Positions 9,267-35,186 of a stretch of DNA of 64,000 bases are shown piece by piece. The notes under the pieces were generated by a model. It was given only the letters and a program-made list of their open reading frames with translations. It had not been told where the DNA came from and did not search any database. The translations under genes and the position numbers were made by a program. The stretch is from Cellulophaga sp. L1A9. Its GTDB lineage: Bacteria; Bacteroidota; Bacteroidia; Flavobacteriales; Flavobacteriaceae. The first letter of the stretch is position 1. Every line of letters begins with the position of its first letter. The stretch is taken from positions 1,426,001 to 1,490,000 of the forward strand of contig NZ_CP047027.1 of assembly GCF_009797025.1 (NCBI RefSeq), written 5' to 3'.

Positions 9267-9740
9267 ATGAATTGGTATGTAATATATGTACAATCTAAAA
9301 AAGAAAAGAAGGTCGCAGAAATCTTGCAAAAAATGCAGATAGAAGTGTACTGCCCTCTTATTAAAGAAGTTAAACAGTGGAGCGATCGCAAAAAAACAGT
9401 GGAAAGTCCATTATTTAAATCCTACGTTTTTGTTAGACTTAAGGATAAAGAACGCTCTAACGTTTATGATGTTCCCGGTGTCGTACGTTATTTATTCTGG
9501 CTTGGGCAGCCCGCTATCGTCAGGGATGAAGAAATAGCTATTATTAAAAAATGGCTAGAAGATGATACTATTGAAGAAATAACCCTCAATAAACTATTAC
9601 CTGGCGATGAAATTCTCATTAAAAACGGCCCACTAAAAGACAAAAAGGCCATTATTCAAGAAGTAGGAAAAAAAAGAATGCGTTTGGCCATTCCTGGTTT
9701 GAGTATTATCATAAATGCTAAAATTAAAGACGTACTTTAA
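9267..9740 (+). CDS. UpxY-like (NusG/RfaH family) transcription antiterminator
   Basis: 157 residues, the usual size for specialised NusG paralogues. The N-terminal NGN domain (about 1-105) opens with NWYVIYVQSKKEKKVAEIL and includes YCPLIKEV, FKSYVFVRL and PGVVRYLFW. The C-terminal KOW-like domain (about 108-157) has LLPGDEILIKNGPLKDKKA. In Bacteroidota, UpxY proteins encoded first in capsular loci bind RNA polymerase and prevent premature termination in the long leader of their own operon. Its position directly upstream of a 572-nt leader and a polysaccharide operon fits this. The ops-like element in that leader, and again ahead of the second gmd, is the likely recruitment site (inference). 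Confidence 0.9.
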   Translation: MNWYVIYVQSKKEKKVAEILQKMQIEVYCPLIKEVKQWSDRKKTVESPLFKSYVFVRLKDKERSNVYDVPGVVRYLFWLGQPAIVRDEEIAIIKKWLEDDTIEEITLNKLLPGDEILIKNGPLKDKKAIIQEVGKKRMRLAIPGLSIIINAKIKDVL

Positions 9741-9965
9741 ACTATTACCCTGTCAGCGTACTTCCATACATCTACATAAACTCTTTAAAAATTTTCTTAT
9801 TATCAGAAACGTAAGTCGAGTTATTACAATATTATACTTGATTATTACCTCATCTTCCACCTAAAAAAGGTATTTCACCGACAAAAAACAACCTTCGTCT
9901 AAAATATTTTATGCTGAATACTTAAAATCGTTTAAGCATATCTCAAAGTGTTAGGGAAGTGAATC

Positions 9966-10192
9966 GAATATATTCACAAAGACCTCGTTTTAATTATCGA
10001 CTTCATAAATCGTAACACACTTTTTAAGGAAATCTTGTGCCATTAAATTTGCCTGCTTAATTTCGCTGCTTGATTGTTTTTACATTCTGTGGAAAACCAC
10101 AGAGATTAACCAAATAGCTAATCTACTTTAGCTAACTTTTAAAAACAATTTACAACCGTGACCTAATTATGTGGTTTACGGCGCGGAGCGCT
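9966..10192 (+). promoter_or_regulatory. Conserved polysaccharide-operon leader, copy 1
   Basis: About 227 nt that align with 33618-33846 ahead of the second gmd, with many substitutions and a net 2-nt indel. The best preserved parts are ACAAAGACCTC, TTATCGACTTCATAAATC, the hairpin CTGTGG-AAAA-CCACAG (10087-10102) followed by AGATTA, and the final 44 nt. Similarity stops right after the ops-like element. Conservation of non-coding sequence between two operons of the same type argues for a functional leader RNA or DNA element. Confidence 0.7.
10149..10192 (+). promoter_or_regulatory. ops-like element, copy 1 (candidate UpxY recruitment site)
   Basis: A 44-nt block with 42 identical positions in the other leader (33803-33846). 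It ends in GGCGCGGAGCGCT, in which GCGC-GGA-GCGC can form a tight hairpin. This resembles the enterobacterial ops site GGCGGTAGCGT, which folds on the non-template strand and recruits RfaH. The match is by eye and is not a proven homology. Confidence 0.55.
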
Positions 10193-10312: not shown

Positions 10313-11425
10313 ATGAAAGTAGCATTTATCACAGGAGTAACGGGACAAGATGGCGCTTACTTGAGTGAATTTTTATTGAAAAAAGGATACCAAGTACATG
10401 GCCTTAAAAGAAGAGCGTCAATGTTTAATACAGATAGAATAGATCATCTGTATCAAGACCCACATATAGAAAATCGTAATTTTATTTTGCATTATGGGGA
10501 TATGACCGATAGTACCAACCTTATCCGTTTAATTCAAGAAATTCAACCAGACGAAATCTACAACCTTGCAGCAATGAGCCACGTACAAGTGTCTTTTGAA
10601 GTTCCTGAATATACAGGAAATGCAGATGGTTTAGGTACACTTCGTATTTTAGATGCTGTTCGTTTATTAGGTTTAGAAAAGAAAACACGTATTTACCAAG
10701 CCTCTACTTCAGAATTATATGGTAAAGTACAAGAAGTGCCACAATCAGAAACTACACCTTTCTACCCACGTAGCCCATATGCTGTTGCTAAAATGTACGC
10801 CTATTGGATTACCGTAAACTATAGAGAAGCGTATGGTATGTATGCCTGTAATGGTATTTTGTTTAACCATGAATCGCCTATTAGAGGAGAAACTTTTGTA
10901 ACACGTAAAATTACGCGTGCTGCTTCTAGAATTGCTCTTGGTTTACAAGACAAAATATACTTAGGAAATTTAGATGCCAAAAGAGATTGGGGTCATGCCA
11001 AAGATTATGTGCGTATGATGTGGATGATCTTACAAGCAGAAGAAGCTGAAGACTGGGTTATTGCTACCGGAAAAACAACTCCTGTTAGAGAATTTGTACG
11101 TATGGCTTTTGCTGAAGTTGGCGTAGAATTAGAATTTAAAGGTGAAGGCGTTGATGAAAAAGGATATGTAAAAGCATGTACCAATCCAGAATTCCAAATT
11201 GAAATAGGAAAAGAAGTATTGGCCGTAGATCCTAAATACTTTAGACCTACAGAAGTAGATTTATTAATTGGTGATGCTACAAAAGCAAATACCAAATTAG
11301 GGTGGATTCCTGAGTATGATTTACAAGATTTGGTAAAAGATATGATGAAGAACGATGTGAAATTAATGCAGAAAGATCAGTTCTTAAAAGAAGGTGGTTA
11401 CAACACCTTTAACTATTTCGAATAA
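10313..11425 (+). CDS. gmd: GDP-mannose 4,6-dehydratase (copy A)
   Basis: 370 residues. It converts GDP-D-mannose to GDP-4-keto-6-deoxymannose, the first step to GDP-L-fucose, in the cytoplasm using bound NADP. Evidence: extended-SDR Rossmann start [12 protein letters not shown] (residues 6-17), the R-R motif LKRRAS, substrate loop ASTSELYG, and the catalytic Y156-x3-K160 in SPYAVAK. Length and order match the family throughout. It is the first gene of line A, followed 97 nt later by fcl. The protein appears identical to the second copy at 33977. No manC or manB is present, so GDP-mannose must come from elsewhere in the genome. Confidence 0.97.
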
Positions 11426-11448
11426 ATCTAATTTTTAGTTCAAAATAC

Positions 11449-11486
11449 AGCACCAATGCCTTTAGCACAACTTAGGTATTGGTGCT
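11449..11486 (+). promoter_or_regulatory. Hairpin in the gmd-fcl spacer (copy A)
   Basis: AGCACCAATGCC (11449-11460) pairs with 11475-11486: 12 bp with one G-U and a 14-nt loop. No U run follows, so it is not a normal intrinsic terminator. It may stabilise or process the mRNA between gmd and fcl. The same structure occurs in the other copy. Confidence 0.5.
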
Positions 11487-11522
11487 AAATAATAAAGTTT
11501 CATCTCAGTTTAACGAATACAC

Positions 11523-12605
11523 ATGGAGAAAGACGCAAAAATATACATAGCTGGTCATAGAGGTTTAGTGGGTAGTGCCATTATAAAAAACTTAGAAGCT
11601 AGAGGGTATACCAATTTTATTACCCGCACTCATAAAGAATTAGACCTTACAGACAGCACTGCGGTACAAACATTTTTTGCTACAGAAAAACCAGAATATG
11701 TGTTTTTGGCTGCTGCTAAAGTTGGTGGTATTGTTGCCAATAATACTTACCGAGCAGATTTTATCTATGCCAACTTAATGATACAGAATAATGTGATTCA
11801 TCAAAGTTATGTGCACGATGTTAAAAAATTAATGTTTTTAGGGAGTACGTGTATCTACCCAAAAAACTGTCCGCAACCCATGAAAGAGGACTATCTCTTA
11901 ACAGATACCCTAGAGTACACTAATGAGCCCTATGCTATTGCTAAAATTGCAGGGATTAAAATGTGTGAGAGTTACAACCTGCAGTATGACCGTAACTTTA
12001 TTTCGGTAATGCCTACCAATTTATACGGTCCTAATGACAATTTCGATTTAGAGAAATCGCATGTATTACCAGCATTAATTCGTAAAATGCATTTGGGTAA
12101 AGCTTTAGAAAATCAAGATTGGAATACGCTACGCAAAGATTTAAACAAGCTTCCTATTGAAGGAATCAATGGGGCGTCTATGGATGAAGACATCTACTCT
12201 ATCCTAGATAAATACGGCATTCAGAAAAAAGGAGACACTGTACATTTAGAAATTTGGGGTTCTGGTAAACCTATGCGCGAATTTCTATGGAGTGAAGATA
12301 TGGCAGATGCTTGTGTGTTCTTAATGGAAGAACGCGATTTTAAAGATTGCTACGATACAAAAACCAAAGAGATTAGAAATACTCATATTAATATTGGTAC
12401 AGGGGTAGATATTTCTATCAAAGATTTAGCAAAATTAGTTAAAGAGACTATTGGGTTTAAAGGGAAATTATATTTCAATGCGGATAAACCTGATGGAACC
12501 ATGAAAAAATTAACAGACCCCTCTAAACTTCACGGCTTAGGATGGAAACATAAGATAGAATTACAAGAAGGCGTACGAAAAATGTACGAATGGTACACAG
12601 AATAG
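11523..12605 (+). CDS. fcl: GDP-L-fucose synthase (copy A)
   Basis: 360 residues. The epimerase/reductase that turns GDP-4-keto-6-deoxymannose into GDP-L-fucose with NADPH. Evidence: Rossmann motif [11 protein letters not shown] (10-20), substrate loop GSTCIYPK, and the catalytic Y137-x3-K141 in NEPYAIAK. It is about 40 residues longer than the E. coli enzyme because of an insertion around residues 190-235, which I recall as usual in Bacteroidota. It is identical to the second copy except for one T/A change and the last ~15 residues, where copy A ends in MYEWYTE. Together with gmd it supplies the activated 6-deoxy sugar for line A. Confidence 0.96.
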
Positions 12606-12838
12606 AACCATAGCTGCACTACCAACGTATATAAAGTGTGCATACACATAGCCCCGAAATATCCTACTAAAACAGCCACTATGACTAAACTTTTGAATAT
12701 CCTACAGCAATTCACAATAAACAAGACCACCTACCGTACTGGTCATGATATCCAAAAAAATACCCATCCGTAATTTTTTTTGAATGGATAGTTTAAAATT
12801 TCAAAAGCCCAAATCATAGAATATTAGAAAAGTCATCA

Positions 12839-14188
12839 ATGAAAAAGTCATATTTCGTTATACCATTATCGTTTATATTTCATATAATTACTATTAATAT
12901 TATTCTGTATTTATTAATTCCTGAAACCTATAGGTCTGGATTTAGTATTCTCTATTATAACATTACATGGCTTATAGTAACCTATGCTATAGATTTTTAT
13001 CCTACGGCACGGAGAGAAGGTTTTACCACAAATGTTCGGAATTTCTTTATGCTTTTCCTTATTTATGGGTTAGTATTCTTTACCTCCTTCACTTTTCTAG
13101 GCGATCACCATTACAAACCAGCATACCTTACTTTAGTATATCTGCTAATTTGTTTAATGCTCACCCTATTTCGTTTACTTTTTTATTGGGCCAGAAATTT
13201 ATACCGGACAAAGGGTTTAAGTAAAGGTGTTAGAGCAGTGGTTATAGGACGCGATAAGAATTTAAAAAAACTACGTCGTATTTTTGATACTGGAAGCTAT
13301 GGCTACAAATACATGGGATATTTCGATAATACTAAATCAGATAGTCCAACCTATTTAGGTAAAATACAAGACGCTTATGCTTATATTTTCGAGAATAATG
13401 TAGAAGAAGTCTACTGTATGGCTTCAAGACTTTCAAAAGATGAAATTAAAGAACTCATGCGCATAGCAGACAATAGTTTAAAAAAAATTAAGATTGTTCC
13501 TGACAACAAAGAACTCTTTTCAAGAGCAATGTCTATAGAATTATATGGCGAAGTTCCTGTATTAAACTTACGAGCGTCTCCTTTAGAATTGGAGTATGCT
13601 AATGTCGTGAAACGTGTTTTCGATATAATTTTTTCTAGTTTAGTTATTCTATTTGTACTTTCATGGTTAACACCATTAGTTTGGATTTTAATGAAGCTAG
13701 ATTCAAAAGGCCCATTATTCTTTAAACAAAGTCGTCATGGGGTAAACAGAAACTCTTTTGATTGTTACAAGTTTAGATCTATGACCAAGAGTGATACTAG
13801 TGATACTAAAATGGCCACAAAAAATGACATGCGGATTACAAAACTGGGTAGAATCTTAAGAAAAACCAGTATAGATGAGTTACCACAATTTATCAATGTT
13901 CTAAAAGGCGAAATGAGTGTTGTGGGTCCAAGACCACACATGCAATTACATACAGAGCAATTTGAAAAATCTGTAGATAAATATTTAGTGCGCCACTTTT
14001 TAAAACCAGGCATCACCGGCTTAGCACAAATAAAAGGCTATCGTGGCGAAATTTTAGAGCAATCTGATATTGTAAACCGGGTACGTTATGATATTTTTTA
14101 TATGGAAAAATGGTCTATTCAATTAGACATATCTATAATTTATTACACCGTGGCTAACGCCATTCGGGGCGAAGAAAGAGCCTATTAA
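12839..14188 (+). CDS. Undecaprenyl-phosphate sugar-1-phosphate transferase, WcaJ type (copy A)
   Basis: 449 residues. A polyprenyl glycosylphosphotransferase that starts repeat-unit synthesis by moving a sugar-1-phosphate (commonly glucose in this subfamily) from a nucleotide sugar to undecaprenyl phosphate. Four to five hydrophobic segments fill residues 1-120, followed by a nucleotide-binding-like domain (VVIGRDKNLKKLRRIF), a re-entrant helix near 265-285 and the C-terminal transferase domain. That domain shows DELPQ (346-350), VGPRP (362-366) and PGITGLAQI (390-398). A close paralogue of the same length lies at 53345, with the C-terminal halves most alike. It is followed 56 nt later by wzc. 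Confidence 0.93.
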   Translation: MKKSYFVIPLSFIFHIITINIILYLLIPETYRSGFSILYYNITWLIVTYAIDFYPTARREGFTTNVRNFFMLFLIYGLVFFTSFTFLGDHHYKPAYLTLVYLLICLMLTLFRLLFYWARNLYRTKGLSKGVRAVVIGRDKNLKKLRRIFDTGSYGYKYMGYFDNTKSDSPTYLGKIQDAYAYIFENNVEEVYCMASRLSKDEIKELMRIADNSLKKIKIVPDNKELFSRAMSIELYGEVPVLNLRASPLELEYANVVKRVFDIIFSSLVILFVLSWLTPLVWILMKLDSKGPLFFKQSRHGVNRNSFDCYKFRSMTKSDTSDTKMATKNDMRITKLGRILRKTSIDELPQFINVLKGEMSVVGPRPHMQLHTEQFEKSVDKYLVRHFLKPGITGLAQIKGYRGEILEQSDIVNRVRYDIFYMEKWSIQLDISIIYYTVANAIRGEERAY

Positions 14189-14244
14189 TAGTATACAACC
14201 ATTAGCAAACTACCATTCAATATAATATTTTCACTCTTAAGATA

Positions 14245-16545
14245 ATGACAGAAACAAATCCAGATTTAAATTCGTTTGAGCAAAATAATATTCGCACTAT
14301 CATAGGTAAGTATTTGAAATTTTGGCCATTATTCGCAGTTAGCTTAGTTATTGCAATTGCAGCCATCATACTTTATATAAGATATTATGCTGAAAATGAG
14401 TATGAAATACAAAGTGCCATCTTACTAAAAAATGTAGAAGCAGGACAAGGTTTTGGTGATTTAGGTGATTTTGCAAGCATGGGGCTAATTAAGAGCTCAC
14501 ATAGTTTAGAAGATGAGATAGGAATTTTAACGTCTATTGGAGTCATGGAAGAAGTGATATCAAAAAATAATTATAACATCACCTACTATATTGCTGGAAG
14601 TATCCGTGATGTTGAAGTTTATGGCCAAAAAGTACCCATTAATATCACTGTAGATGAAACTGTTGATAATTTAATTTATGATGTACCCATTTCGATCAAA
14701 TTTATTGATTCCGCCACCTATGAACTTATTACCGTTGTTGAAGATAAGGAACTAAAATCACAACATACTTTTGGTGAAGTTGTTACAACATCTTACGGCA
14801 CATTTACCATTGCCACTAAAGGCGAAGCACTTAAACTAAAGGAATCAAAAAATTTATATTTTAAAATAGGAAATAAGGATGATTTAATATCTAGTTTTCT
14901 TAAAAAGCTTAGTGTTGTACCTGCAAATAAAACAGGGAGCTCATTAAACCTCAATTTCATCTCTAATGATAAAATAAAAGGTGAAGAGATTCTTTCTAAA
15001 CTTATTGAGACTTATATTGAGAAAACCATCAAATATGAAAACGAGTTAGCCGAAAATACCATCAAAATGATCGATGATAGGTTAAACTTATTATCTGGTG
15101 AAATTGAAGATGTAGAAAAAACAGTGGTAGATTTTAAAACTGAAAATACGGTAACAAATATTGCCAATAATGCCGATACGTATGTGCAACAGTCTAATGA
15201 CTATAAAAACAGAGTAGCAGAATATCAAACTCAAATTAACGTATTGGAAGGGGTTGAATTTTCATTACAAAATGGGAATAACGAAACTACAATTGGGGGT
15301 GCGGCAATTAATGACCCATCTGTTAACAATTTAATCGCTCAATACAACCAAGCCTTAGCGGAAAAACAAAAATTATCACAATCTGCTTCTAGCTCTAACC
15401 CCTTAGTAGCTAATTTAGATGAAAATTTAAGTAGCCTTAGACAGTCCATTATTCAAAATGTGCGAAGTGTAAAAAATGGCTATTCCATCGCCCGTGGTAA
15501 TTTATCTGCCAATGCAAATCGGTATGATTATCAAATTGCTAAAGTTCCGGGAATGGAAAAAAAACTGTTAGACATTAGCCGTGACAAAAGCACGAAAGAA
15601 GGACTTTATCTTTTTTTACTACAAAAAAGAGAAGAAGAAGTGCTTTCTTTAGCCGCTCCAGTTTCCTCAACAAGAATTGTCGATTATCCTAAAGCTGGAA
15701 AATTCCCTATTAGTCCAAATAAAAAGTTACTTTATTTCTCAGGTCTACTTTTAGGATTATTCATACCAGTTTCGTTACTATATTTGAAAGATGCTTTAAA
15801 CAATAAAATTTCGAGCGTAGAAGAGCTAACTCAAAATTCAGCAGCTCCTTTTCTTGGAGAAATTGCACGCAGCAAAAATAACACTATAGTGGTCACTGAA
15901 GATCGGGCAACTTCACCAGAGGCCGAATTATTCAGGCTGTTACTTTTCAATTTAAATTTCCTAAAGAAAACAGAGAAGAATCAAACTATTTTAGTAACCT
16001 CCACAGAAAAGGGTGAAGGAAAAACTTTTATCGCCTCTAATCTAGCCTTGACCTTTGCTTCAAACGGCGAAAAAGTAGTCGTTTTAACTTTCGATTTACG
16101 AGAGCCTAAATTAATGGAAAATTTCAATCTTCCTAACTCTCCTGGAATTACGGATTTTATTGTCAAAAAAGGCTTAGATGTAGATCAAATTATTCAAAAA
16201 CATCCTAGTATCGATGATTTCTATTTGGTAGGCTCGGGAAGTACGATGAATCAAGTCGGTCGCTTAATGGTCAGTAATAGAATAGGCGTACTTATGGATG
16301 TTTTAAAACAAGAGTACGATCGTATCATTATTGATACGGCCCCAATAGGTCTTATTTCTGATGCCTTTGCTTTGAATACCTATATAGATAGTACAATTTA
16401 TGTGGTTCGTAAAGACAAAACAAAAAAACAATCTTTAAAAGTTATCAATTCTATCTATGAAAATGATCGTTTAAAAAATACTATGGTCGTTTTTAATGAT
16501 ACAAAAGCTGCAGCCTCTTATGGGTACGGCTCAATTAAAGGATAA
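14245..16545 (+). CDS. wzc: Wzc-type polysaccharide co-polymerase / tyrosine autokinase (copy A)
   Basis: 766 residues. An inner-membrane protein controlling chain length and export. TM1 is at about 30-50, followed by a Wzz-type periplasmic domain with long coiled-coil stretches (about 265-460). TM2 lies near 495-512 after a Pro-rich SPNKK segment. The cytoplasmic BY-kinase domain has Walker A GEGKT (590-594), an A' region VVLTFDLREP (about 612-621) and Walker B IIIDTAP (about 694-700). A' usually reads DxD; here the first Asp is replaced (TFD). The C-terminal tail has few tyrosines (ASYGYG). The copy at 54782 has the same architecture but is clearly divergent. Confidence 0.92.
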   Translation: MTETNPDLNSFEQNNIRTIIGKYLKFWPLFAVSLVIAIAAIILYIRYYAENEYEIQSAILLKNVEAGQGFGDLGDFASMGLIKSSHSLEDEIGILTSIGVMEEVISKNNYNITYYIAGSIRDVEVYGQKVPINITVDETVDNLIYDVPISIKFIDSATYELITVVEDKELKSQHTFGEVVTTSYGTFTIATKGEALKLKESKNLYFKIGNKDDLISSFLKKLSVVPANKTGSSLNLNFISNDKIKGEEILSKLIETYIEKTIKYENELAENTIKMIDDRLNLLSGEIEDVEKTVVDFKTENTVTNIANNADTYVQQSNDYKNRVAEYQTQINVLEGVEFSLQNGNNETTIGGAAINDPSVNNLIAQYNQALAEKQKLSQSASSSNPLVANLDENLSSLRQSIIQNVRSVKNGYSIARGNLSANANRYDYQIAKVPGMEKKLLDISRDKSTKEGLYLFLLQKREEEVLSLAAPVSSTRIVDYPKAGKFPISPNKKLLYFSGLLLGLFIPVSLLYLKDALNNKISSVEELTQNSAAPFLGEIARSKNNTIVVTEDRATSPEAELFRLLLFNLNFLKKTEKNQTILVTSTEKGEGKTFIASNLALTFASNGEKVVVLTFDLREPKLMENFNLPNSPGITDFIVKKGLDVDQIIQKHPSIDDFYLVGSGSTMNQVGRLMVSNRIGVLMDVLKQEYDRIIIDTAPIGLISDAFALNTYIDSTIYVVRKDKTKKQSLKVINSIYENDRLKNTMVVFNDTKAAASYGYGSIKG

Positions 16546-16592
16546 ATTTTTTAAACATTTAATAATAAACTTTACTTGGCTTTACTAAAATT

Positions 16593-17957
16593 ATGTCCTT
16601 AAAAAAAAGATTAGTAAATAATGGCTTGGCCTCAATACTTTCAAAAGGAGTCCGTGTATTAGAGCAACTATTTTTAGTACCCTTTTTTATTGCTGCTTGG
16701 GGAGCCGCATATTATGGTGAGTGGATTACTTTAACCATAATCCCTAGCGTAATGGCCTTTTCTAATTTAGGATTTGGTTCTGCAGCAGCAAATAGCCTAG
16801 TATTAACATATGCTTCAGGAGACAAACAAAAGGCCGCAGACATAAGTAAGACAGGTTTTTATATTATTACCATAATGGTATTTATTGCAATAGTACTAGG
16901 GGCTATAGCAATATATGTGCTAGATATATTCCATGTTTTTGATAAGTCATTAATAGACAGTCAAGATGCTATTTTAGCGGTTTCAATTCTTATTATAGCT
17001 AGGTTATTAAACTTTTACGATCAATTAATTGAATCATTTTATAGAGCAGCTCAAAGGGCTGCATTAAGCATAAACCTTTTAACTATAAGAGCTGCACTAA
17101 ATTTGGCCGCTGGTTTATTAGTATTATTGCTTGAATACGGTATTGTTGCATTTGCAATTTCACAATTAATGGTAACAGTTCTTTTTAGCATTTTATATTG
17201 GTTAAAGGGAAGATCTGTTTTAGGCTTGTATAAAAACTTTACAGGAACGAAAGATGCTGTAATATTAAAAGGAATTACGACAAAAGGATTAAGTTATTTA
17301 ATGCTACCCGTTTGGCAAATAATTTACTTTCAGGGAACTACATTTGTCGTACGGATTGTTTTAGGACCAGAGGCAGTAGCTATATTTAACACTGCGCGAA
17401 CCTTGAGCAGGTCACTTAATCAATTATTGTATTTGGTTGAACCCACAGTATTTCCTGAATTACAAATTGCGATAGGTAAAAATGATTGGAAAACTGCTAA
17501 ACAAATATTTAGAGTCTCAATAATTGGTGTGTTCTTATTATCATTAATTGGCGTAATATTCTTAGCTATTTTTGGTTTATGGTTTTATAATATCTGGACC
17601 AATAATGAATTAGAACTTCCACGAGCAATGTGGTATACTTTAATTTCGGCTATGCTTTTCAATGCTCTGTGGTATACTTCTGAAATGGTATTTCGAGCTG
17701 TTAATCAACCAAAAAGAATGGGGATCTATGGCATAATCGCAGCAATTCTATCTGTATTACTAACGTATCTTTTTGCAACATTCTATGGCATTACTGGAGC
17801 TGCTATTGGCGCCGTATCCTTAGATCTAATATTAGTATTTCTTGTTGTACCAAATGGGTGCAAAATAATGAAAATGTCCCTCAGCGATTTAGTTTCACAT
17901 GGTGCGGATGACTTTAAAGAATTATTTCAAAAAATTTCAAAAAAAATAAAAAAATAA
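16593..17957 (+). CDS. wzx: Wzx-type polysaccharide flippase (line A)
   Basis: 454 residues, almost wholly hydrophobic, with about 12-14 predicted membrane segments. The N-terminus has the polysaccharide-transporter-family signature of a short basic start (MSLKKRLVNNGLASILSKG) followed by VPFFIAAWGAAYYGEW. Members flip undecaprenyl-linked repeat units across the inner membrane. It lies 47 nt after wzc and 34 nt before the polymerase, the classical order for a Wzx/Wzy locus. Composition is AT-richer than gmd-fcl. The donor oligosaccharide cannot be inferred. Confidence 0.87.
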   Translation: MSLKKRLVNNGLASILSKGVRVLEQLFLVPFFIAAWGAAYYGEWITLTIIPSVMAFSNLGFGSAAANSLVLTYASGDKQKAADISKTGFYIITIMVFIAIVLGAIAIYVLDIFHVFDKSLIDSQDAILAVSILIIARLLNFYDQLIESFYRAAQRAALSINLLTIRAALNLAAGLLVLLLEYGIVAFAISQLMVTVLFSILYWLKGRSVLGLYKNFTGTKDAVILKGITTKGLSYLMLPVWQIIYFQGTTFVVRIVLGPEAVAIFNTARTLSRSLNQLLYLVEPTVFPELQIAIGKNDWKTAKQIFRVSIIGVFLLSLIGVIFLAIFGLWFYNIWTNNELELPRAMWYTLISAMLFNALWYTSEMVFRAVNQPKRMGIYGIIAAILSVLLTYLFATFYGITGAAIGAVSLDLILVFLVVPNGCKIMKMSLSDLVSHGADDFKELFQKISKKIKK

Positions 17958-17991
17958 AACGATATATAATCGATTTTAAGAAATCTATCAT

Positions 17992-19554
17992 ATGGTAGAA
18001 AATAAAAACTATACAATAACTCTAATTAAAAAAATCTTAAGATTATTATTAATCTTAGGAGTTGTGGCGGAAATGATCTTTTTTCCTTCACTACCCAACT
18101 TCTATGGTTGTGTAATGGCAATTATAAGTTTAGCTATTTTTTCATATTTTTTTAAATTAAAATATATAAAATTATTTCCTTTTGCCTTCTGCATGTATTT
18201 ATCTATGTTCCTATATAGATTTCTACCTTTAATCGCAACACTGGCAGAAGGCAAACCAATAACCTATGGTTTTGAAAGAGCCTATGATACGTTTGTCTAT
18301 GAAATAATTCTTTTTCTAATATCATCCTTGGCTTTCTATCTTGCCTGCAGATATAATGCTAAAACATATCAAAATAACATAATAAAAAGAACGCTCTTTA
18401 AATTAAAGTTTTTTGAAATAACCCCAGAGATACTATGGGGAATGGGACTAATAGGATTAGTTGTAAGATTATATAATTTAAGTACTGGAGCCGTTGAATA
18501 TGGTGATGTTGGAGGAAAATTTTTAGTTGGATTAGATTATTTAATGTTTGCTCCTCTATGCTTATTTTTTCCAAGTTTTCTAAATGTAAAATTTAATCAA
18601 AAAAAATTATTATGGTTATATACTCTGGTAATCTTTTTAATAAACATTGCGTCCAACAAAAGACATCTTATTATAACACCTTTTGGAATTTTCGGTGTAC
18701 TGTCTATGCTGTTTTTAATTATTAATAATAAAAAGATAACAACCATTATATCACCAACCAAAATGATTATTGGCGGAATCTTATTATTTGTAGGTCTTAA
18801 TTTCCTGAGTAATGTCTCATTAGCAATGTTATACACCAGAGAAACAATGCTTTACAATCAGGAACTAAGAAACAATGCCAATAAAATGGAGGCGTTTAAC
18901 GAAACTATAGAGACAGTCCAAAACGAACAATTAATGGATCGTCTAAAGGAAATAAAAGATAAAATACAAGTCCGAAAGACCCAATATTCTCAAGGATGGA
19001 CAGAAGATTATGTTGATAATTTCATGCTAGAGCGCTATGCCAATATGCGTATTACAGATGAAACTTTATATTATGCCGAAAAAAGAGGATATGGGAACAA
19101 GCAAATGTTTGAGTTATTTCAAAATAATATTCTCGCCTTAGTACCTACGCCAATATTAGGATTTTTCGGAGTTCAATTTGATAAAACAGAATTGGAATTT
19201 TCAAGAGGAGATTTTTTATATGGATCGGGATATGGAATGTATCGCGTAACTAGTCATGTTGGTGATGGATTGGCAACCTTTGGTTATTGGTATTTTATAC
19301 TTCAATTTATCACTTTTTTCATTGTTTTTAAATTACTCAATTCTTTCGTATATCTAGCTAATGAAACTATGGTATATGCTCCTTATGCCTTAATGAATGT
19401 ATTTACCTTCTTAGGAATGTTTAGAAATTCTGGAGGAATTCTTATAGATGTCAAATTCATTTTAAGAGGATATTTAGAAGGCTTAGTTACGTATTTAATT
19501 ATATTTTATATGATTAGGCAAGTAATAAGTTTTGTGAAAAATATTAAAAAATAA
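17992..19554 (+). CDS. wzy: Wzy-type O-antigen/exopolysaccharide polymerase (line A)
   Basis: 520 residues with about 10-12 hydrophobic segments. A large hydrophilic loop lies around residues 285-410, and residues 420-430 are aromatic/Gly-rich. This is the usual layout of Wzy polymerases, which join flipped repeat units at the periplasmic face. Sequence conservation in the family is poor, so the call rests on topology and on its place directly after the flippase. Very AT-rich coding, as is typical for wzy. A second candidate polymerase at 44923 belongs to line B. Confidence 0.72.
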   Translation: MVENKNYTITLIKKILRLLLILGVVAEMIFFPSLPNFYGCVMAIISLAIFSYFFKLKYIKLFPFAFCMYLSMFLYRFLPLIATLAEGKPITYGFERAYDTFVYEIILFLISSLAFYLACRYNAKTYQNNIIKRTLFKLKFFEITPEILWGMGLIGLVVRLYNLSTGAVEYGDVGGKFLVGLDYLMFAPLCLFFPSFLNVKFNQKKLLWLYTLVIFLINIASNKRHLIITPFGIFGVLSMLFLIINNKKITTIISPTKMIIGGILLFVGLNFLSNVSLAMLYTRETMLYNQELRNNANKMEAFNETIETVQNEQLMDRLKEIKDKIQVRKTQYSQGWTEDYVDNFMLERYANMRITDETLYYAEKRGYGNKQMFELFQNNILALVPTPILGFFGVQFDKTELEFSRGDFLYGSGYGMYRVTSHVGDGLATFGYWYFILQFITFFIVFKLLNSFVYLANETMVYAPYALMNVFTFLGMFRNSGGILIDVKFILRGYLEGLVTYLIIFYMIRQVISFVKNIKK

Positions 19555-19570
19555 ATTTTCAAGCTTACTA

Positions 19571-20719
19571 ATGAATATAGTGTTTTTAATACATCAGGAA
19601 GGGTCATTAGGGTACAGCATGAAGCGCTATACAGAATCGTTAGCTAATAAGCTCAGTAATAAAGGATATCAAACTCAAATCTGGGCACCAAGACTAATAT
19701 TATCTAAAAATAGAAAAAATAAAGGCTTTGGTAAATGGTTACGTTATATTGATCAATACCTTCTATTTCCATTCTCGTTTAAGTGGAAAAATATTAATAC
19801 AGATAAAAACACCATTTATGTATTAATTGATCAAGCTTTAGGAATATGGACTCCATTAGTAAAAAACAAAAAGCATGTCGTTCATTGTCATGATTTTATA
19901 GCCTTAAAATCTGCACAAGGATTAATACCCGAAAACCCGACAGCTTGGACTGGTAGAATATATCAATACCTGATTTTGAATGGTTTTAGAAAAGCTTCAA
20001 ATTTTATTTCAATTTCGAAAAACACTCAAAAAGAATTAGGAGGTTTTTTAAATAAAAAACCAATAATTAACGCTCAAATTTATAACGCTATAGATCAAAA
20101 ATTTAAAATTGGATCTATTAATAACGCTAGAATAAGCATTGGAGAACAGATTAACACTGATGTTAGTGGAGGGTATATCTTACATATAGGCAGCAATACA
20201 TTTTACAAAAATAGAAATGGCGTTTTAAATATATATATCCAGTGGCGAAAATTAAGTAAAAAAAAGACGCCCTTAATAATGATTGGTTCTGCGGCTACCG
20301 CAACTATGTTAAAGTTAAGGGAAGAATCTCAATATAGTGAAGATATTCACTTTTTAACTAGAGTTGAAGATGCTATTCTAATTCAGGCCTATCAAGGTGC
20401 TACTGTTTTTATTTTTCCTTCATTATTAGAAGGTTTTGGATTTCCTATAATTGAAGCGATGGCATGCGGTTGCCCTGTAATAACAACAGATAAAGCGCCT
20501 ATGAACGAAATTGGCGGTGAAGCTGCCACATACATATCAGCAACGAATAAAAAAACAATTGTTAATAAAGGTGCATTTGCCATTGAAACTATATTAAATT
20601 ATTCAAAAGAAACTAGAGAAGAATTAATTCAAAAATCTCTTCTAAATGCAAAAAAATATCAAGATGAAACTTTTGTTAACGATATTGAAAATATCTATTT
20701 AAAAATAATGGCTAACTAA
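19571..20719 (+). CDS. Family 4 glycosyltransferase
   Basis: 382 residues with a GT-B fold. The N-terminal half begins MNIVFLIHQEGSLGYSMKRY. The C-terminal half carries LHIGSNTFYKNRNG and the EX7E-type motif EGFGFPIIE (287-295), followed by AMACGCPVITTD. The conserved acids contact the nucleotide-sugar donor in retaining GT4 enzymes. It probably adds one sugar to the lipid-linked repeat unit at the cytoplasmic face. Only 16 nt after wzy, so same operon. Donor and linkage are unknown. Confidence 0.88.
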   Translation: MNIVFLIHQEGSLGYSMKRYTESLANKLSNKGYQTQIWAPRLILSKNRKNKGFGKWLRYIDQYLLFPFSFKWKNINTDKNTIYVLIDQALGIWTPLVKNKKHVVHCHDFIALKSAQGLIPENPTAWTGRIYQYLILNGFRKASNFISISKNTQKELGGFLNKKPIINAQIYNAIDQKFKIGSINNARISIGEQINTDVSGGYILHIGSNTFYKNRNGVLNIYIQWRKLSKKKTPLIMIGSAATATMLKLREESQYSEDIHFLTRVEDAILIQAYQGATVFIFPSLLEGFGFPIIEAMACGCPVITTDKAPMNEIGGEAATYISATNKKTIVNKGAFAIETILNYSKETREELIQKSLLNAKKYQDETFVNDIENIYLKIMAN

Positions 20720-20739
20720 AAATTGATGAACTGATAGTA

Positions 20740-21675
20740 ATGAAAAAACGTTTTGAATGGATAGATAACATAAGAGGTCTAATGATAATATTAGTCGCCC
20801 TAGGGCATATCATAGTAGATGGCAGTATAGATAACACCTTTAATTCTATCATGAGAATGCCTACATTTTTTATGATAAGTGGTTTCTTATTTAAATTTAA
20901 ACCTTACAAAGAATATTTAAAGCATAAATTCATTCATCTAATTATACCCTATTTTGTATATCTAGTTCCAATCTTAGCGCTGCAAATGTATTTTGAAGAA
21001 AAAAGCTATTTAGAATATTTTGGAAGGTTAGTATTGGGTGGGCCATTTTTATACACTTGGACAGGTGTATTTTGGTTTATTACATGCCTATTCTTCACGC
21101 AACAAATATTCAATTTACTAAACGGGTGGAAAATTCAAAAGATTGCACTCTTAATGTTCCTATTTTTAATTCTAGCATATACAAATCAACTGTATTTTCA
21201 AACAATAAATATTCCATTGAGCTTAAATATTTGTTTATATTCTTGTCCTTTATTCTTTACGGGATTTTTATTTAAAAAATTAATTGGCGAAGTACATTTA
21301 GCTAAAATTGTGCCGATAATATCAATAATAATTATTTTTATTGCCAGCACTTTCTATTTCAATGAGCTCTACATTAATATGAAGCTAGCAAATTATGGCA
21401 TCCCATTTTTAAGTTTTATTCTAAGTATATTATCTGCATTTTGCATGATAAAACTTTTTAAATCTTTTGAAAAAAATGTTGGCCTTAATATTGTCGGAAA
21501 AGCATCTATGGTTATTATGTATCTTCATTTACCCATTAATTACTTAATTCTGAATTTCTACCCCAACTTTAACCAATGGCTACTCCTATTAATTGCCATA
21601 AGTATCCCGACATGTTTATATTACGTGTTTCGAAGAAATAACATTACAAAAAAATATCTTTTAGGGGAGCGCTAA
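20740..21675 (+). CDS. Acyltransferase family 3 membrane protein
   Basis: 311 residues with about ten membrane segments. It starts with the family signature WIDNIRGLMIILVALGHI, in which H23 is the expected catalytic histidine. The GGPFLYTWTGVFWFITCLFF region resembles the second conserved block. Members O-acetylate (or otherwise acylate) surface sugars using a cytoplasmic acyl donor. In this operon it most likely decorates the line A polymer. The acyl group and acceptor are unknown. Confidence 0.85.
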   Translation: MKKRFEWIDNIRGLMIILVALGHIIVDGSIDNTFNSIMRMPTFFMISGFLFKFKPYKEYLKHKFIHLIIPYFVYLVPILALQMYFEEKSYLEYFGRLVLGGPFLYTWTGVFWFITCLFFTQQIFNLLNGWKIQKIALLMFLFLILAYTNQLYFQTINIPLSLNICLYSCPLFFTGFLFKKLIGEVHLAKIVPIISIIIIFIASTFYFNELYINMKLANYGIPFLSFILSILSAFCMIKLFKSFEKNVGLNIVGKASMVIMYLHLPINYLILNFYPNFNQWLLLLIAISIPTCLYYVFRRNNITKKYLLGER

Positions 21676-21732
21676 AAAAACTTAAATTAAAAAATAAAAG
21701 GTCTTTCTTAATTAGTTAATCCTTACTCAATA

Positions 21733-22161
21733 ATGCAAAAACAACCTGAAAAATACGTGCAAATAATAGGATTTTCTTTATTTACTATTGGTATTGCACT
21801 GATATTTCTATTCAGTTGGAAAACTAATCCAAATGTAGGGGAGTATAGTTTTTTACCTGATTGGCTTATCAATTGGGCGGATCAATATCGAAACAGTAGA
21901 AAACGAACAGCTGTCCCTTTTGTTTTCTTAGGTTTTTTAGCGGGAATCTATCTAATCTATATCCAAAAAAAGAGTCTTCGATTTTGGATTTTAACGGGAA
22001 TAATTTTAGTACTTACCGTTATCATTGCAGAACTCGGACAATACTTCATCCCCTCTAGAAGCCCTGACCTTAAAGATGTACTTTGGGGAAGTATTGGCGC
22101 AGGTCTTGGTTTACTACCAATTTTTATATTTTACAAAATAACAAAACGACTAAAAAAATAG
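21733..22161 (+). CDS. VanZ-like family membrane protein
   Basis: 142 residues with four hydrophobic segments. The C-terminal half has the VanZ-type signature IAELGQYFIPSRSPDLKDVLWGSIG, with the conserved E..Q and D..D positions. VanZ-like proteins are widespread in Bacteroidota and their biochemical role is unknown; in enterococci VanZ affects teicoplanin sensitivity. It ends 4 nt before the next gene, so it is co-transcribed with the polysaccharide genes, but a role in the pathway is not shown. Confidence 0.78.
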   Translation: MQKQPEKYVQIIGFSLFTIGIALIFLFSWKTNPNVGEYSFLPDWLINWADQYRNSRKRTAVPFVFLGFLAGIYLIYIQKKSLRFWILTGIILVLTVIIAELGQYFIPSRSPDLKDVLWGSIGAGLGLLPIFIFYKITKRLKK

Positions 22162-22165
22162 CACC

Positions 22166-23416
22166 TTGGAGCAAATTTTTAAAAAAAATATTTTATTTAT
22201 AGGGTATAACTTTTCACCTGAATTAACTGGTATTGGAAAATATTCTGGAGAAATGATGCATTGGCTGGCTGAACATGGCCATAAATGTACCGTACTTACT
22301 GCGTACCCCTATTATCCGTATTGGAAAGTTCAAGAACCCTATCGGAAAAATCGTTTTTGGTATAAAAAGGAAGTGAAAAAATATCCTTCTGGCGGGAAAT
22401 TAACCGTAATACGTTGTCCCATGTATGTACCTACAAATCCAAGCGGATTGAAACGGATGCTTTTAGATACATCCTTTTCTATTTCTGCTTTTATGGCAAT
22501 ACTTCCTAAATTGTTTCAAAAAAAATATGATTGGGTAATTTCCATTGCGCCTTCTTTTCAGTTTGGTCTTTTAGGTGTTTTATATAAAAAAATTAAGGGA
22601 GCTAAACATTTACATCATATTCAAGACCTTCAAATTGAAGCGGCACAAGATTTAGGACTAATTAAATCTCCCGCACTTCTAAAATTATTATACGGAACCG
22701 AACGCTTTATATTCAAACATACCGATGTGGTGAGCAGCATTTCTGATGGAATGATGGAACGGATAGAACGAAAAGCAAAAAAATCATTACTGTTCTTCCC
22801 AAATTGGACGGATACTAAAACATTTCATCCTTTAAGCGATAAAGCTGCTTTAAAAGCACAGTTTGGCTATAAGGCTACGGACTGGGTAGTACTCTATTCG
22901 GGAGCTATCGGCGAAAAACAAGGTTTAGAAGCAATTTTACACGCTGCGGATGCTTTAAAAACAAAACAAGCCATACAGTTTGTCATCTGCGGTACTGGTC
23001 CTTACAAAGAAAAATTAATCACCATGACCCAAAAGATGAACTTAACTAATATTCATTTTTCACCCTTACAACCTATGGAGGCTTTTAATGCTTTTTTAAA
23101 CATGGCCGATTTGCATTTGGTCATACAAAAAGAAAAGGCCAGTGACTTAGTGATGCCTTCCAAATTAACTACTATTTTAGCCGTTGGAGGCTTGGCGTTG
23201 GTTACGGCAAACAAGACGGCAAGTTTGCATAAATTAATACATAGATATGGCATGGGCATCGTGGTAGATGCCGAAAATCAAGACGCTCTAAATACAGGGA
23301 TTTTAAAAGCTTTTGAAGACACAAACACTAAAAAAATGACCGATGCAGCTAGAGCTTATGCACAACAATTTTTAGCCATGGAAAACATAATGAGTGCTTT
23401 TGAAAAACAGCTCTAA
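22166..23416 (+). CDS. WcaI-like family 4 glycosyltransferase
   Basis: 416 residues with a GT-B fold. The N-terminus NILFIGYNFSPELTGIGKYSGEM is typical of colanic-acid WcaI-type (putative fucosyl) transferases. HHIQDLQIEAA and the C-terminal SDLVMPSKLTTILA, where the usual EX7E region is replaced, also fit. GDP-fucose from gmd-fcl is a reasonable donor, but that is inference. A TTG at 22166 is taken as start because the first ATG (about 22254) would cut off the first Rossmann strand. It lies only 4 nt after the VanZ-like stop. Confidence 0.87.
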   Translation: MEQIFKKNILFIGYNFSPELTGIGKYSGEMMHWLAEHGHKCTVLTAYPYYPYWKVQEPYRKNRFWYKKEVKKYPSGGKLTVIRCPMYVPTNPSGLKRMLLDTSFSISAFMAILPKLFQKKYDWVISIAPSFQFGLLGVLYKKIKGAKHLHHIQDLQIEAAQDLGLIKSPALLKLLYGTERFIFKHTDVVSSISDGMMERIERKAKKSLLFFPNWTDTKTFHPLSDKAALKAQFGYKATDWVVLYSGAIGEKQGLEAILHAADALKTKQAIQFVICGTGPYKEKLITMTQKMNLTNIHFSPLQPMEAFNAFLNMADLHLVIQKEKASDLVMPSKLTTILAVGGLALVTANKTASLHKLIHRYGMGIVVDAENQDALNTGILKAFEDTNTKKMTDAARAYAQQFLAMENIMSAFEKQL

Positions 23417-23480
23417 TTCACAATGTACTATAAGAATGCATTTGGTCGATGATTAGTACTATTTATCTATAATTGTGAGA

Positions 23481-23511
23481 AAATAAATACTATCGCAGTA
23501 TCTTTATTTTC
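23481..23511 (+). terminator. Hairpin with T tract in a mid-operon gap
   Basis: ATACT (23487-23491) pairs with AGTAT (23497-23501). After a 2-nt bulge, AAATAA (23481-23486) pairs with TTATTT (23504-23509), and T-rich sequence with an eight-T run follows. It sits in the 184-nt gap between the WcaI-like gene and the CapK-like gene, the largest gap inside line A. It could cause partial termination unless the antiterminator is bound. The stem is AT-rich and weak. Confidence 0.3.
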
Positions 23512-23600
23512 TAATTTTTTTTATCAGATTCAGCCAAACCAGAGAATTCTAAGCAATACTTCTTGTCTTAAAACGTTGGTATATTAAAAACGAATAACAT

Positions 23601-24929
23601 ATGGGGAATAGCTTCGCTAAAGCAGTTTTTTCGTTTAAAACAAAAATTTTAAATCCAAAACTAAACCGCTTACATCAAAAGACCAAAAAAAGGCTAAAAG
23701 AACCTAATTTAGATAAGTACAATTTAGAAAAACGCCAAGAACTTATTCATCATGCAATAACAAATTCAACCTTTTATAATAAAAAATACGGCAAACTAAA
23801 TTTACCTGAAAATGGAACTATAACAACAGGAGACTTTTTAAAGATACCACCTCTAACAAGGGCAGAATTAGTAGAAAATTTTGAAAATATTAAAATAAAA
23901 AATGTTTCTTCTGTTGGTGTTAAAAAAGTAAAAACTTCTGGAAGTACAGGGCATCCAATATCTATATTAAGAGACTTACGAAATCCAGAAACTCCTATTC
24001 GCTGGCGCATATTAAATTGGTGGGGCATAGAACCATGGGAAAATCAAGCCTTCATTTATCGTTATAAACGTCCATTTTCTGAGCGTATCAGTAATGCCTT
24101 ATTATGGTGGCCCACAAAACGTATTTTTTTAGCGGCTGCTAATCCCACTAAAGAACACTTAGAGAAATTCGTAACTGATTTTAACAGCATAAAACCTTCA
24201 CTTTTACAAGGCTATGTAGATGTTGTTTTTGAATTTGCCTTATATCTATTAGATAACAATATAAAAATTCATCCTCCAAAAATGGTATGGGTAACCTCTG
24301 CCCCATTATTTGAAGAACAACGTGAGTTAATGCAAAAGGCTTTTGGAGCACCAGTTTGCGATCAATATGGGAATACCGAAATTATGTTAATCGCAGCAGA
24401 ATGTCCTGAACAGAAAGGCTTGCACATTATGCAAGATACCGTACATATTGAGTTTGTAGATAAAGAAAACCAACCGGTACCCCCAAATACTACCGGAAGA
24501 ATATTATTAACAGATTTGACAAATTATGCCTTTCCTTTAATCCGTTATGATATTGGTGATGAAGGAAGGTTTATGGATGAAATGTGTAGTTGTGGTAAAC
24601 AACTTCCTTTAATGGAGAACGTACGAGGGAGACAAGCACATAATATTCAAACACCTTCTGGTTTAAGAATTCGAGGGGAACATTTGATGGCTATGTTTAA
24701 TGGGCATATGAAGAATTTTAAAGAAATACAATTACGCCAAGAGGCAGATTATTCGGTTTCTATGGAATATGTACCTAGGGGGCATCATAATCATAGCAAA
24801 GAAATTCAGAATATGGCAGAATTAATCATGCAACGTTCGCGGCAAGAAATTAAAGTATATCCCAAAGAAGTACAAAAAATACAACAAGTAGGCAGAAAAA
24901 CACCTTTAATTGTAAGTAATTTAAAATAG
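23601..24929 (+). CDS. CapK / phenylacetate-CoA ligase-like adenylating enzyme
   Basis: 442 residues of the AMP-binding (ANL) superfamily, CapK/PaaK branch. The phosphate-binding loop is TSGSTG (112-117), the adenine/Mg motif is DQYGNTE (254-260), and RYDIGDEG forms the later core motif. A Cys cluster (MCSCGKQ) follows, as in many CapK relatives. Such genes recur in capsule loci but no product has been assigned to them. The enzyme probably activates a carboxylic acid for transfer to a sugar or amino group. The directly following ATP-grasp gene (21 nt) suggests a joint pathway (inference). Confidence 0.85.
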   Translation: MGNSFAKAVFSFKTKILNPKLNRLHQKTKKRLKEPNLDKYNLEKRQELIHHAITNSTFYNKKYGKLNLPENGTITTGDFLKIPPLTRAELVENFENIKIKNVSSVGVKKVKTSGSTGHPISILRDLRNPETPIRWRILNWWGIEPWENQAFIYRYKRPFSERISNALLWWPTKRIFLAAANPTKEHLEKFVTDFNSIKPSLLQGYVDVVFEFALYLLDNNIKIHPPKMVWVTSAPLFEEQRELMQKAFGAPVCDQYGNTEIMLIAAECPEQKGLHIMQDTVHIEFVDKENQPVPPNTTGRILLTDLTNYAFPLIRYDIGDEGRFMDEMCSCGKQLPLMENVRGRQAHNIQTPSGLRIRGEHLMAMFNGHMKNFKEIQLRQEADYSVSMEYVPRGHHNHSKEIQNMAELIMQRSRQEIKVYPKEVQKIQQVGRKTPLIVSNLK

Positions 24930-24950
24930 GTATAACGTTTACCTTTTTTT

Positions 24951-26000: not shown

Positions 26001-26062
26001 AATGTCATGATTGGTGACATCGAATCATTTTGAGCTAACCACAACAAACCATAAAGAAATTT

Positions 26063-27046: not shown

Positions 27047-27047
27047 A

Positions 27048-28220: not shown

Positions 28221-28221
28221 A

Positions 28222-28797
28222 ATGGACAATTTTAAATCAAAGGTACAGTTAAATGATTTTGACTCCACACTAGGTTTAAACCGTGGAGCAAGCCGGATAA
28301 AAGAACTCTTGTGGTACATCATTAAAGTCTTCTTTTTCTTAAGTGCCTTACCTTACCCAAGTGCATTAAAGGTATGGTTATTAAAGCAATTTGGTGCAGA
28401 AATCGGGATCGGTGTGGTCATCAAACCTAGGGTTAACATCCATTTCCCATGGAAACTGAAGGTAGGCGATCATGTATGGATTGGAGAAGAAGCCTTTTTA
28501 CTCAATTTTGAGTTATTAACCATTGGCAACCATGTTTGTATTTCACAACGCAGCTTTTTATGCGGAGGAAACCATGATTTCCGCAACCCTGCTATGCCCT
28601 ATAGAAATGGTCCAATTACGTTAAAAGATGGTTCTTGGGTAGGTGCTTGTTGCTTTATTGGCCCTAACGTTACAATTGGAACAGATACCGTAATCACCGT
28701 TGGCTCAATAATCGTAGCTAATCAAGAAAACAATAGAGTAATCACACAAGTACCTACGAACCAAAGTAAAACTAGATGGAAAATAAAAAATAACTAA
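28222..28797 (+). CDS. WcaF-like hexapeptide acetyltransferase
   Basis: 191 residues of the left-handed beta-helix acetyltransferase family, closest in pattern to colanic-acid WcaF. Evidence: KVWLLKQFGAEIGIGVVIKPRVNIHFPW, then hexapeptide turns (VGDHVWIGEEAF, IGNHVCISQRSFLCGGNHDF with the catalytic-type His) and GACCFIGPNVTIG. It transfers acetyl from acetyl-CoA to a sugar hydroxyl. It is the last plus-strand gene of line A. Its stop codon overlaps by 3 nt the stop codon of the convergent lipoprotein gene, leaving no room for a separate terminator. Confidence 0.9.
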   Translation: MDNFKSKVQLNDFDSTLGLNRGASRIKELLWYIIKVFFFLSALPYPSALKVWLLKQFGAEIGIGVVIKPRVNIHFPWKLKVGDHVWIGEEAFLLNFELLTIGNHVCISQRSFLCGGNHDFRNPAMPYRNGPITLKDGSWVGACCFIGPNVTIGTDTVITVGSIIVANQENNRVITQVPTNQSKTRWKIKNN

Positions 28798-35089: not shown

Positions 35090-35112
35090 ATCTAATTTTT
35101 AGTTCAAAATAC

Positions 35113-35150
35113 AGCACCAATGCCTTTAGCACAACTTAGGTATTGGTGCT
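35113..35150 (+). promoter_or_regulatory. Hairpin in the gmd-fcl spacer (copy B)
   Basis: Same 12-bp stem and 14-nt loop as at 11449-11486, unchanged in sequence. No U tract follows. Confidence 0.5.
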
Positions 35151-35186
35151 AAATAATAAAGTTTCATCTCAGTTTAACGAATACAC

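Follow-up and report, generated by a model that had tools for sequence, protein, structure and literature searches.

A conserved leader element as the likely recruitment site of UpxY antiterminators in polysaccharide operons of Bacteroidota

Two polysaccharide operons and a single upxY gene

The window, a stretch of 64,000 nucleotides from Cellulophaga sp. L1A9, contains a gene for an UpxY-family protein and two polysaccharide operons, each preceded by a predicted promoter and by one copy of a short leader element. Operon contents were read from ORFs and from family matches for part of these ORFs. The features are:

9267–9740, + strand: upxY, UpxY-family NusG paralogue of 157 amino acids
10035–10065, + strand: predicted promoter of operon A, TTG-N20-TAATTTCG, 104 nt upstream of box A
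10156–10181, + strand: nascent-RNA hairpin A from folding, a predicted pause hairpin with the box as its 3' arm
10169–10180, + strand: box A, ATGTGGTTTACG, profile positions 1–12 (consensus aTGtGACTGAgG)
10181–10192, + strand: mini-hairpin A, GCGC-GGA-GCGC plus a T, which is profile position 24 and the predicted RNA 3' end of the pause
10313–28797, + strand: operon A, with gmd, fcl, sugar transferase, Wzc-like, flippase-like, glycosyltransferase and other genes
33687–33717, + strand: predicted promoter of operon B, TTG-N20-TAATTTTG, 106 nt upstream of box B
33810–33835, + strand: nascent-RNA hairpin B, from folding
33823–33834, + strand: box B, ATGTGGCTTACG, from the profile positions
33835–33846, + strand: mini-hairpin B, GCGC-GGA-GCGC plus a T, from the profile and third-pair covariation
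33977–57139, + strand: operon B, with gmd, fcl, acyltransferase, flippase-like, pyruvyl transferase, WecG-type glycosyltransferase, sugar transferase and Wzc-like genes

The product of the gene at 9267–9740 matches the NusG family of Pfam (E = 8.6e-21) and scores 140.3 bits on the NCBIfam profile antiterm_UpxY (NF033644), which has a cut-off of 100; an earlier note on this DNA had called it UpxY-like, and the name can stand. The protein misses the cut-offs for the RfaH equivalog (71.8 versus 144.5 bits) and for LoaP (70.2 versus 125 bits). The solved structures nearest to it by sequence are those of RfaH (E = 1.2e-12), and its AlphaFold model (pLDDT 81.8) matches NusG and RfaH in the PDB. In its C-terminal half the model shows strands and no helical, autoinhibitory KOW domain of the RfaH type; with a pTM of just 0.57 it is not decisive on this point. 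In an alignment read by eye, Arg73 of RfaH corresponds to Pro70 of UpxY and Lys10 to Gln9, both of which we count against an ops-like reading, although lysine is the consensus at the latter position among 29 relatives.

When the 5.07 Mb genome was searched with an UpxY alignment, the gene at 9267 was the one match at E ≤ 1e-12, and it encodes the only UpxY above the family cut-off. A second NusG-family gene, which probably encodes the housekeeping NusG, falls short of the cut-off at 61.8 bits on the UpxY profile.

Directly 3' of upxY lies operon A, opening with gmd, fcl, a sugar transferase gene and a Wzc-like gene. As no ORF of at least 100 amino acids was found between the end of upxY (9740) and gmd (10313), an upxZ of that size is not adjacent to upxY. 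Operon B is without an upxY of its own; the genes within operon A, and likewise those within operon B, are presumed to be co-transcribed. Between the operons an ORF of 790 amino acids without a Pfam match occupies the opposite strand (28794–31166). The gmd-fcl cassettes (10313–12605 and 33977–36275) share 1106 of 1113 nucleotides in gmd (99.4%, with 370 of 370 amino acids identical), 97 of 97 in the spacer and 98.2% in fcl. This near-identity, set against leaders that are 69–88% identical outside the element, suggests that the coding part of the cassette recently underwent duplication or gene conversion.

The two leaders (9966–10192 and 33618–33846) do precede the two gmd genes, as had been described, and their last 44 nucleotides (10149–10192 and 33803–33846) are identical at 42 of 44 positions, which agrees with the two differences reported before. 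Both blocks terminate in GGCGCGGAGCGCT, and the GCGC-GGA-GCGC hairpin is present at the end of either copy. The similarity had also been said to stop exactly at the block end: a sharp drop is found there, to 68.7% identity with 20 gap positions over the following 120/130 nucleotides, although short matching stretches return near the gmd start codons. Within the leaders, the 24 nucleotides of box and hairpin are identical at 23 positions, against 69–88% for the remaining segments. The genome contains just two copies of the 12-mer GCGCGGAGCGCT, a 23-letter pattern allowing up to three mismatches finds the same two places only, and the element profile (E ≤ 0.05), for which both copies are training sequences, finds them and none besides. 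As a sole probe the 12-mer was rejected: it occurs in 10 of 299 genomes of the family, with the upstream box, judged by eye, only in G000.

We take TTG-N20-TAnnTTyG to be the Bacteroidota-type promoter consensus. Under this assumption the RNA would start near 10072 in operon A and near 33724 in operon B; the first part of each "leader" is therefore promoter region, and its first 100 or so nucleotides are probably untranscribed. Among 87 distinct element loci, 18 have the promoter pattern at most 320 nt ahead of the element (23 of 92 if duplicate loci are counted), versus 3.8% of shuffles; its strict form is missing from L009–L014. The segments directly upstream of the two predicted promoters (9966–10034 and 33618–33686) are 88% identical and could possibly bind another regulator. 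Neither leader contains an intrinsic terminator (a G+C-rich stem followed by a T run), and no Rfam 15 family matches the window at its gathering score; three weak Rfam matches (E = 0.83–3.4) were discarded. Leader RNA A (10072–10192, element included) folds strongly, with a z-score of −5.5 relative to shuffles, and leader RNA B (33724–33846, element included) more weakly (z = −2.4). A TGTGG-AAAA-CCACA hairpin is common to the leader RNAs of copy A, copy B and L009.

Recurrence of the element with upxY

A protein search yielded 15 loci in named genomes. At the eleven closest, from Cellulophaga, Maribacter and Arenibacter, the element lies 308–500 nt past the upxY stop codon. The first genes, judged by translated starts and checked with Pfam in L010, L012 and L016, are, L018 apart, gmd or sugar transferase genes; in L018 the first long ORF begins later than at the other closest loci. 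Since these loci open with either gene, what the element goes with is UpxY and the beginning of the operon, and not gmd. A search of the complete genomes of these relatives, with up to three mismatches allowed, finds the element once in 10 of 11 and more often in that of L014.

Among 36 Maribacter genomes, the window-type motif (up to three mismatches) is present in 10 of 14 with UpxY and in 1 of 22 without (Fisher test, 4e-5). All ten of the former are on the UpxY strand, 373–419 nt past the end of the UpxY match. The other four genomes with UpxY contain a divergent gene (G318), a second UpxY subtype (G329), a more diverged element (G336) and a gene fragment (G337); the match without UpxY (G312) has three mismatches and a GGT loop. 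Behind the second Maribacter subtype, which shares about 50% identity, comes ATGTGG-ATTTAACGGC-GGA-GCCGTT, another stem with the same loop. This second-subtype element (L069, L070, L071 and L066) has the stem AACGGC/GCCGTT and a GGA loop. In G306, G309 and G313 the second subtype is encoded about 69–76 kb from the first UpxY.

On a wider scale, 345 genomes were searched from the class of the window, which we take to be Bacteroidia in GTDB naming, and UpxY was found in 109. Thirty of the class upxY loci came with this search and 80 were added later; they were pooled with the earlier loci, eight among the weakest or truncated UpxY matches being left out, and L023 and L072 are without an UpxY ORF. 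Motif discovery by expectation-maximisation on 109 class upxY loci, a set that excluded the window, the loci of the protein-search relatives and the Maribacter loci, returned aTGtGACTGAgGtGGCGAAGCtGTGa as the top motif, which is the element; its log-likelihood is 703, and the distinct motif ranked next reaches 346. An antisense run of the motif finder gave the same motif reverse-complemented and so does not serve as a negative control.

At a profile score of at least 12, the element is found in 88 of 141 upxY loci in the sense orientation and in 4 of 141 in antisense, with about 1% of shuffles scoring as high. With five duplicate loci removed these figures become 84 and 4 of 136, and for the class loci alone 61 of 109 pass. 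Of the 84 elements, 26 precede upxY, in many cases by no more than 120 nt, and 58 follow it, at about 35–700 nt in clear cases. The other 53 of the 141 loci score below 12; a relaxed scan of these gave eight sense and two antisense matches, the convincing ones being L019 and L061 (the same locus) and L091.

Searched genome-wide, the exact pattern TGKGACTKANNNGGCGRAGC is present in 54 of 109 class genomes with UpxY versus 1 of 236 without, and with one mismatch allowed in 74 of 109 versus 15 of 236, the positives being partly so by construction because the pattern was derived from these loci. No match at up to one mismatch was found in 35 of the 109. A reversed control pattern gave 19 matches, counted manually, versus 129 sites for the true pattern. 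Five of the 15 one-mismatch sites in genomes without UpxY were inspected: three are inside ORFs, L209 has no overlying ORF, and the fifth, L204, was left unplaced, its locus being truncated. The sole UpxY-negative genome with exact matches, G668, has two, one of them upstream of a Poly_export gene (L243); our guess is that its UpxY lies outside the assembly. All co-occurrence figures given here are plain counts of genomes or loci that ignore kinship.

The earlier note had suggested looking for the block across flavobacterial genomes. For the family of the window (Flavobacteriaceae, by its named relatives), 299 genomes, most of them outside the discovery set, were searched with a profile built from 75 aligned elements and also for UpxY. 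At E ≤ 0.01 the element is present in 37 of 67 genomes with UpxY versus 1 of 232 without. Removing four discovery-set genomes leaves 34 of 63 versus 1 of 232, and removing two more that possibly overlap earlier loci leaves 32 of 61 with UpxY. The remaining 30 of 67 UpxY genomes of the family have no match at E ≤ 0.01, and overall no element was recognised in about half of the genomes with UpxY. The looser threshold of E ≤ 0.05 yields 61 sites in 51 genomes, five of which lack UpxY; 37 of the 61 sites lie at most 1.5 kb from upxY, and all 37 are on its strand.

Of the 129 class sites, 40 far from upxY were taken, 38 in genomes with UpxY and two in G668. At 30 of these, one downstream ORF was scanned, usually the first (the second for L215, L225 and L229). 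This ORF belongs to a definite polysaccharide family in 14 cases (UDP-sugar dehydrogenase, Poly_export, sugar-nucleotide enzymes or sugar transferase) and to a compatible one in six (cytidylyltransferase, MBOAT or ABC); in five more the next ORF is definitely a polysaccharide gene. Five are unexplained, namely L225 and, from G374 and G615, two repeat copies each. Outside the scan were sites without an ORF (L214, L216 and L244), a masked one (L246), two inside an ORF (L220 and L240) and repeat copies (L213, L218, L236 and L237). In the family set, eight of 24 far sites were examined and all eight precede a polysaccharide gene, in one case gmd. These raw counts, uncorrected for how common such genes are, speak against the block lying mostly away from polysaccharide operons, an outcome the earlier note had named as fatal to its idea. 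As far sites mostly precede polysaccharide genes, UpxY probably acts in trans.

Some sites belong to dispersed repeats. G374 has six similar ones (L213–L218), each roughly 250 nt or longer, in which the element is matched in full; of their neighbours two were scanned, an HsdM and a Fic gene, neither of them a polysaccharide gene. In G615 four repeats (L234–L237) contain TGTGACTGAGnnTGCGAAGCCGTA, and as the two scanned neighbours are again not polysaccharide genes, the element may there have been picked up by a mobile repeat.

Conservation and pairing within the element

The element has three parts: an RNA hairpin with a TGTGACTGA box as its 3' arm, a C-GNA-G mini-hairpin, and a pause-like T-G. 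In the unbiased profile, the core is conserved as C (96%), G (97%), A or G (97%), A (97%), G (94%) and C (93%). For the hairpin counts, elements had to contain CGNAG, by which L151 and L176 were dropped; the first pair and the loop G and A are thus fixed by choice. The middle loop base, free in this selection, is A in 50, G in 27, C in one and T in none of 78 distinct elements.

Pairing was assessed in an alignment of 75 rows, drawn from 76 references. L163, L181 and L182 were left out as doubtful, L163 and L182 being the two elements with a broken second pair, and L073, which is copy A of the window, was also left out. In these CGNAG-selected rows the C-G and G-C pairs are invariant. The third pair varies: it is most often G-T (32 of 75), which is weak in DNA, followed by G-C (25), C-G (8), T-G (6), A-T (1) and others (3). 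Paired cells in the mini-hairpin amount to 98.7%, versus 88.8% in shuffled alignments, and none of 500 shuffles is as high; double changes number 14, versus 3.0 in shuffles, and every one of them is in the third pair. Extending the stem to five pairs lowers the paired fraction to 85.1% (versus 78.0% shuffled), so that good support overall is limited to three pairs.

In 78 of 83 distinct loci an RNA hairpin has the box as its 3' arm, a count that is weak by itself as controls give 60–68. Folding energy is the stronger signal: the mean is −7.94, versus −5.87 (standard deviation 0.22) when upstream segments are swapped among loci and −5.63 (standard deviation 0.24) in shuffles. Nearest-neighbour folding of isolated oligonucleotides did not separate the DNA from the RNA form of the mini-hairpin and gave no special stability to the DNA. 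We nevertheless prefer the non-template DNA form because GNA and GNNA loops closed by at least two G-C pairs are described in PMC4686876 as giving exceptionally stable DNA mini-hairpins, GCGAAGC melting at 78 °C; the mini-hairpin would then act as non-template DNA.

Proposed recruitment of UpxY and alternative readings

We consider it likely that the UpxY antiterminator is recruited at this element, which would make it a counterpart of the ops site used by RfaH. The earlier note had proposed that the two window copies recruit the antiterminator encoded at 9267. Properties computed directly from the genomes, namely the element itself, its conservation and covariation, its strand, its co-occurrence with UpxY and its operon context, favour that proposal and support a wider reach than the one first envisaged. 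One UpxY and two elements also fit the idea that a single regulator would drive both operons. Weighing against recruitment are the UpxY loci and genomes in which no element was recognised, the matches within the repeats of G374 and G615, those of the reversed control pattern, the frequent G-T third pair and the lack of special stability of the DNA form in nearest-neighbour folding.

RNA polymerase would start at the promoter about 105 nt upstream and then reach the element, where a nascent-RNA hairpin with the TGTGACTGA-type box as its 3' arm would form. The polymerase would pause at the T-G directly after the hairpin sequence, allowing the GC-GNA-GC of the exposed non-template strand to fold into the mini-hairpin. 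We infer that the NGN domain of UpxY binds here by reading the mini-hairpin together with the box in the upstream duplex. UpxY would remain on the polymerase and, as is expected from its family, suppress termination along the polysaccharide operon. A single UpxY could serve in this way both the operon adjoining its gene and, in trans, the one 24 kb away that has a promoter and element only.

In an alternative reading, UpxY would recognise the nascent RNA, as the longer hairpin or as the GNA hairpin in RNA form, instead of non-template DNA. LoaP is a precedent: like UpxY at the present locus, it is a NusG paralogue with a hairpin in the leader (dfn), and LoaP is described in PMC12691694 as associating with this RNA element. 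An RNA hairpin does lie directly upstream of the mini-hairpin, and leader RNA A folds far more strongly than its shuffles, B less so. The best-conserved part of the element, in contrast, is C-GNA-G, with a loop class that is special for DNA, and the sequence of the box is more conserved than pairing alone would require. The protein also falls under the LoaP cut-off, and PMC12691694 credits UpxY with upstream-duplex contacts. A further difference from LoaP is that the dfn hairpin is described there as causing no discernible pause. We regard recognition of RNA as unlikely, although it is the most serious competitor to recruitment through non-template DNA.

The element could also be a mere pause or attenuation signal that co-occurs with UpxY through the polysaccharide operons they share. 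It has a pause-like sequence and an RNA hairpin, and the operons are long; yet it is rare in genomes without UpxY (1 of 232 in the family at E ≤ 0.01, 1 of 236 in the class for the exact pattern and 1 of 22 in Maribacter) and neither leader has an intrinsic terminator, which makes this improbable. Still less credible is a double-stranded operator for an unrelated DNA-binding regulator: there is an inverted repeat downstream of a predicted promoter, but its strand is fixed (37 of 37 sites near upxY, and 88 sense versus 4 antisense loci), the GNA loop is asymmetric, the box is one-sided and the site is about 105 nt past the promoter. That the copies are alike through duplication of the gmd-fcl cassette and without function, as the 99.4% and 98.2% identities of gmd and fcl might suggest, can practically be dismissed, since the element is 23/24 identical against 69–88% elsewhere in the leaders and is found together with UpxY in many genomes, ahead of different genes.

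The preferred reading, recruitment of UpxY by the element, has much in common with what is known of Bacteroides. Chatzidaki-Livanis 2009 is said to have described UpxY antitermination of Bacteroides capsule operons. According to Saba et al. 2024, UpxY reportedly recognises the paused polymerase through non-template and upstream duplex DNA, with nascent-RNA hairpins helping. The three parts of the present element match this description, and because the fit is close we rate the novelty of the element lower. In the literature searched, a scope that stopped short of the full text of Saba et al. 2024 (Nat Commun 15:10862), we recognised no flavobacterial or class-wide UpxY element. As in Bacteroides, an UpxY-family protein, polysaccharide operons and an element in the leader go together; the Bacteroides fragilis UpxY proteins activate their own capsule operons, as stated in PMC7593976, and prevent premature termination within 5' leaders, as stated in PMC7819879. 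Unlike in the Bacteroides systems, upxY lies here upstream of the predicted promoter and the element, not behind the leader, one UpxY faces two operons, and an upxZ of at least 100 amino acids is not adjacent.

For comparison with ops we take GGCGGTAGCGTG as its letters, along with the general pause consensus. With these letters, the last part of the element, GGCGAAGCTGTG, fits the 12-nt ops frame, with GG at −11/−10 and T-G at −1/+1; the window copies keep G−10 and T−1 and have C at −11. Both hairpins consist of two G-C pairs and a closing G-A pair. In ops, whose hairpin reads GC-GNNA-GC, these pairs are G2:C9, C3:G8 and G4:A7, and the polymerase pauses at U11 (PMC11001881). Against this geometry, the GNA loop of the present element has one loop base fewer. 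Also unlike RfaH and ops, there is a conserved upstream box with an RNA hairpin, and the protein remains far below the RfaH cut-off.

It is conceivable, with about as much speaking for it as against, that the Bacteroidota possess a class-wide counterpart of ops, a GC-GNA-GC non-template mini-hairpin with a box that is the arm of an RNA pause hairpin, serving several operons in trans, and that RfaH (GNNA) and UpxY (GNA) share one structural code, built on exceptionally stable DNA mini-hairpins, in which the loop bases choose the factor. A 2020 paper (PMC7593976) calls the recruitment of NusG paralogues encoded in their own operons unknown, and the 2024 structural paper (PMC11001881) raises the question of whether further factors are recruited by non-template hairpins that differ in their loop bases. 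A well-defined element whose loop rule can be tested would be a direct candidate answer to the recruitment question for many Bacteroidota.

UpxY regulons would also become predictable from sequence, including those in which one UpxY faces five elements (G434) or four (G466 and G604), most of them before polysaccharide genes. At L219, L249 and L251, the first gene after the element encodes a protein of 174–181 amino acids without a Pfam match, winged-helix-like by eye, and is followed by a UDP-sugar dehydrogenase or export gene.
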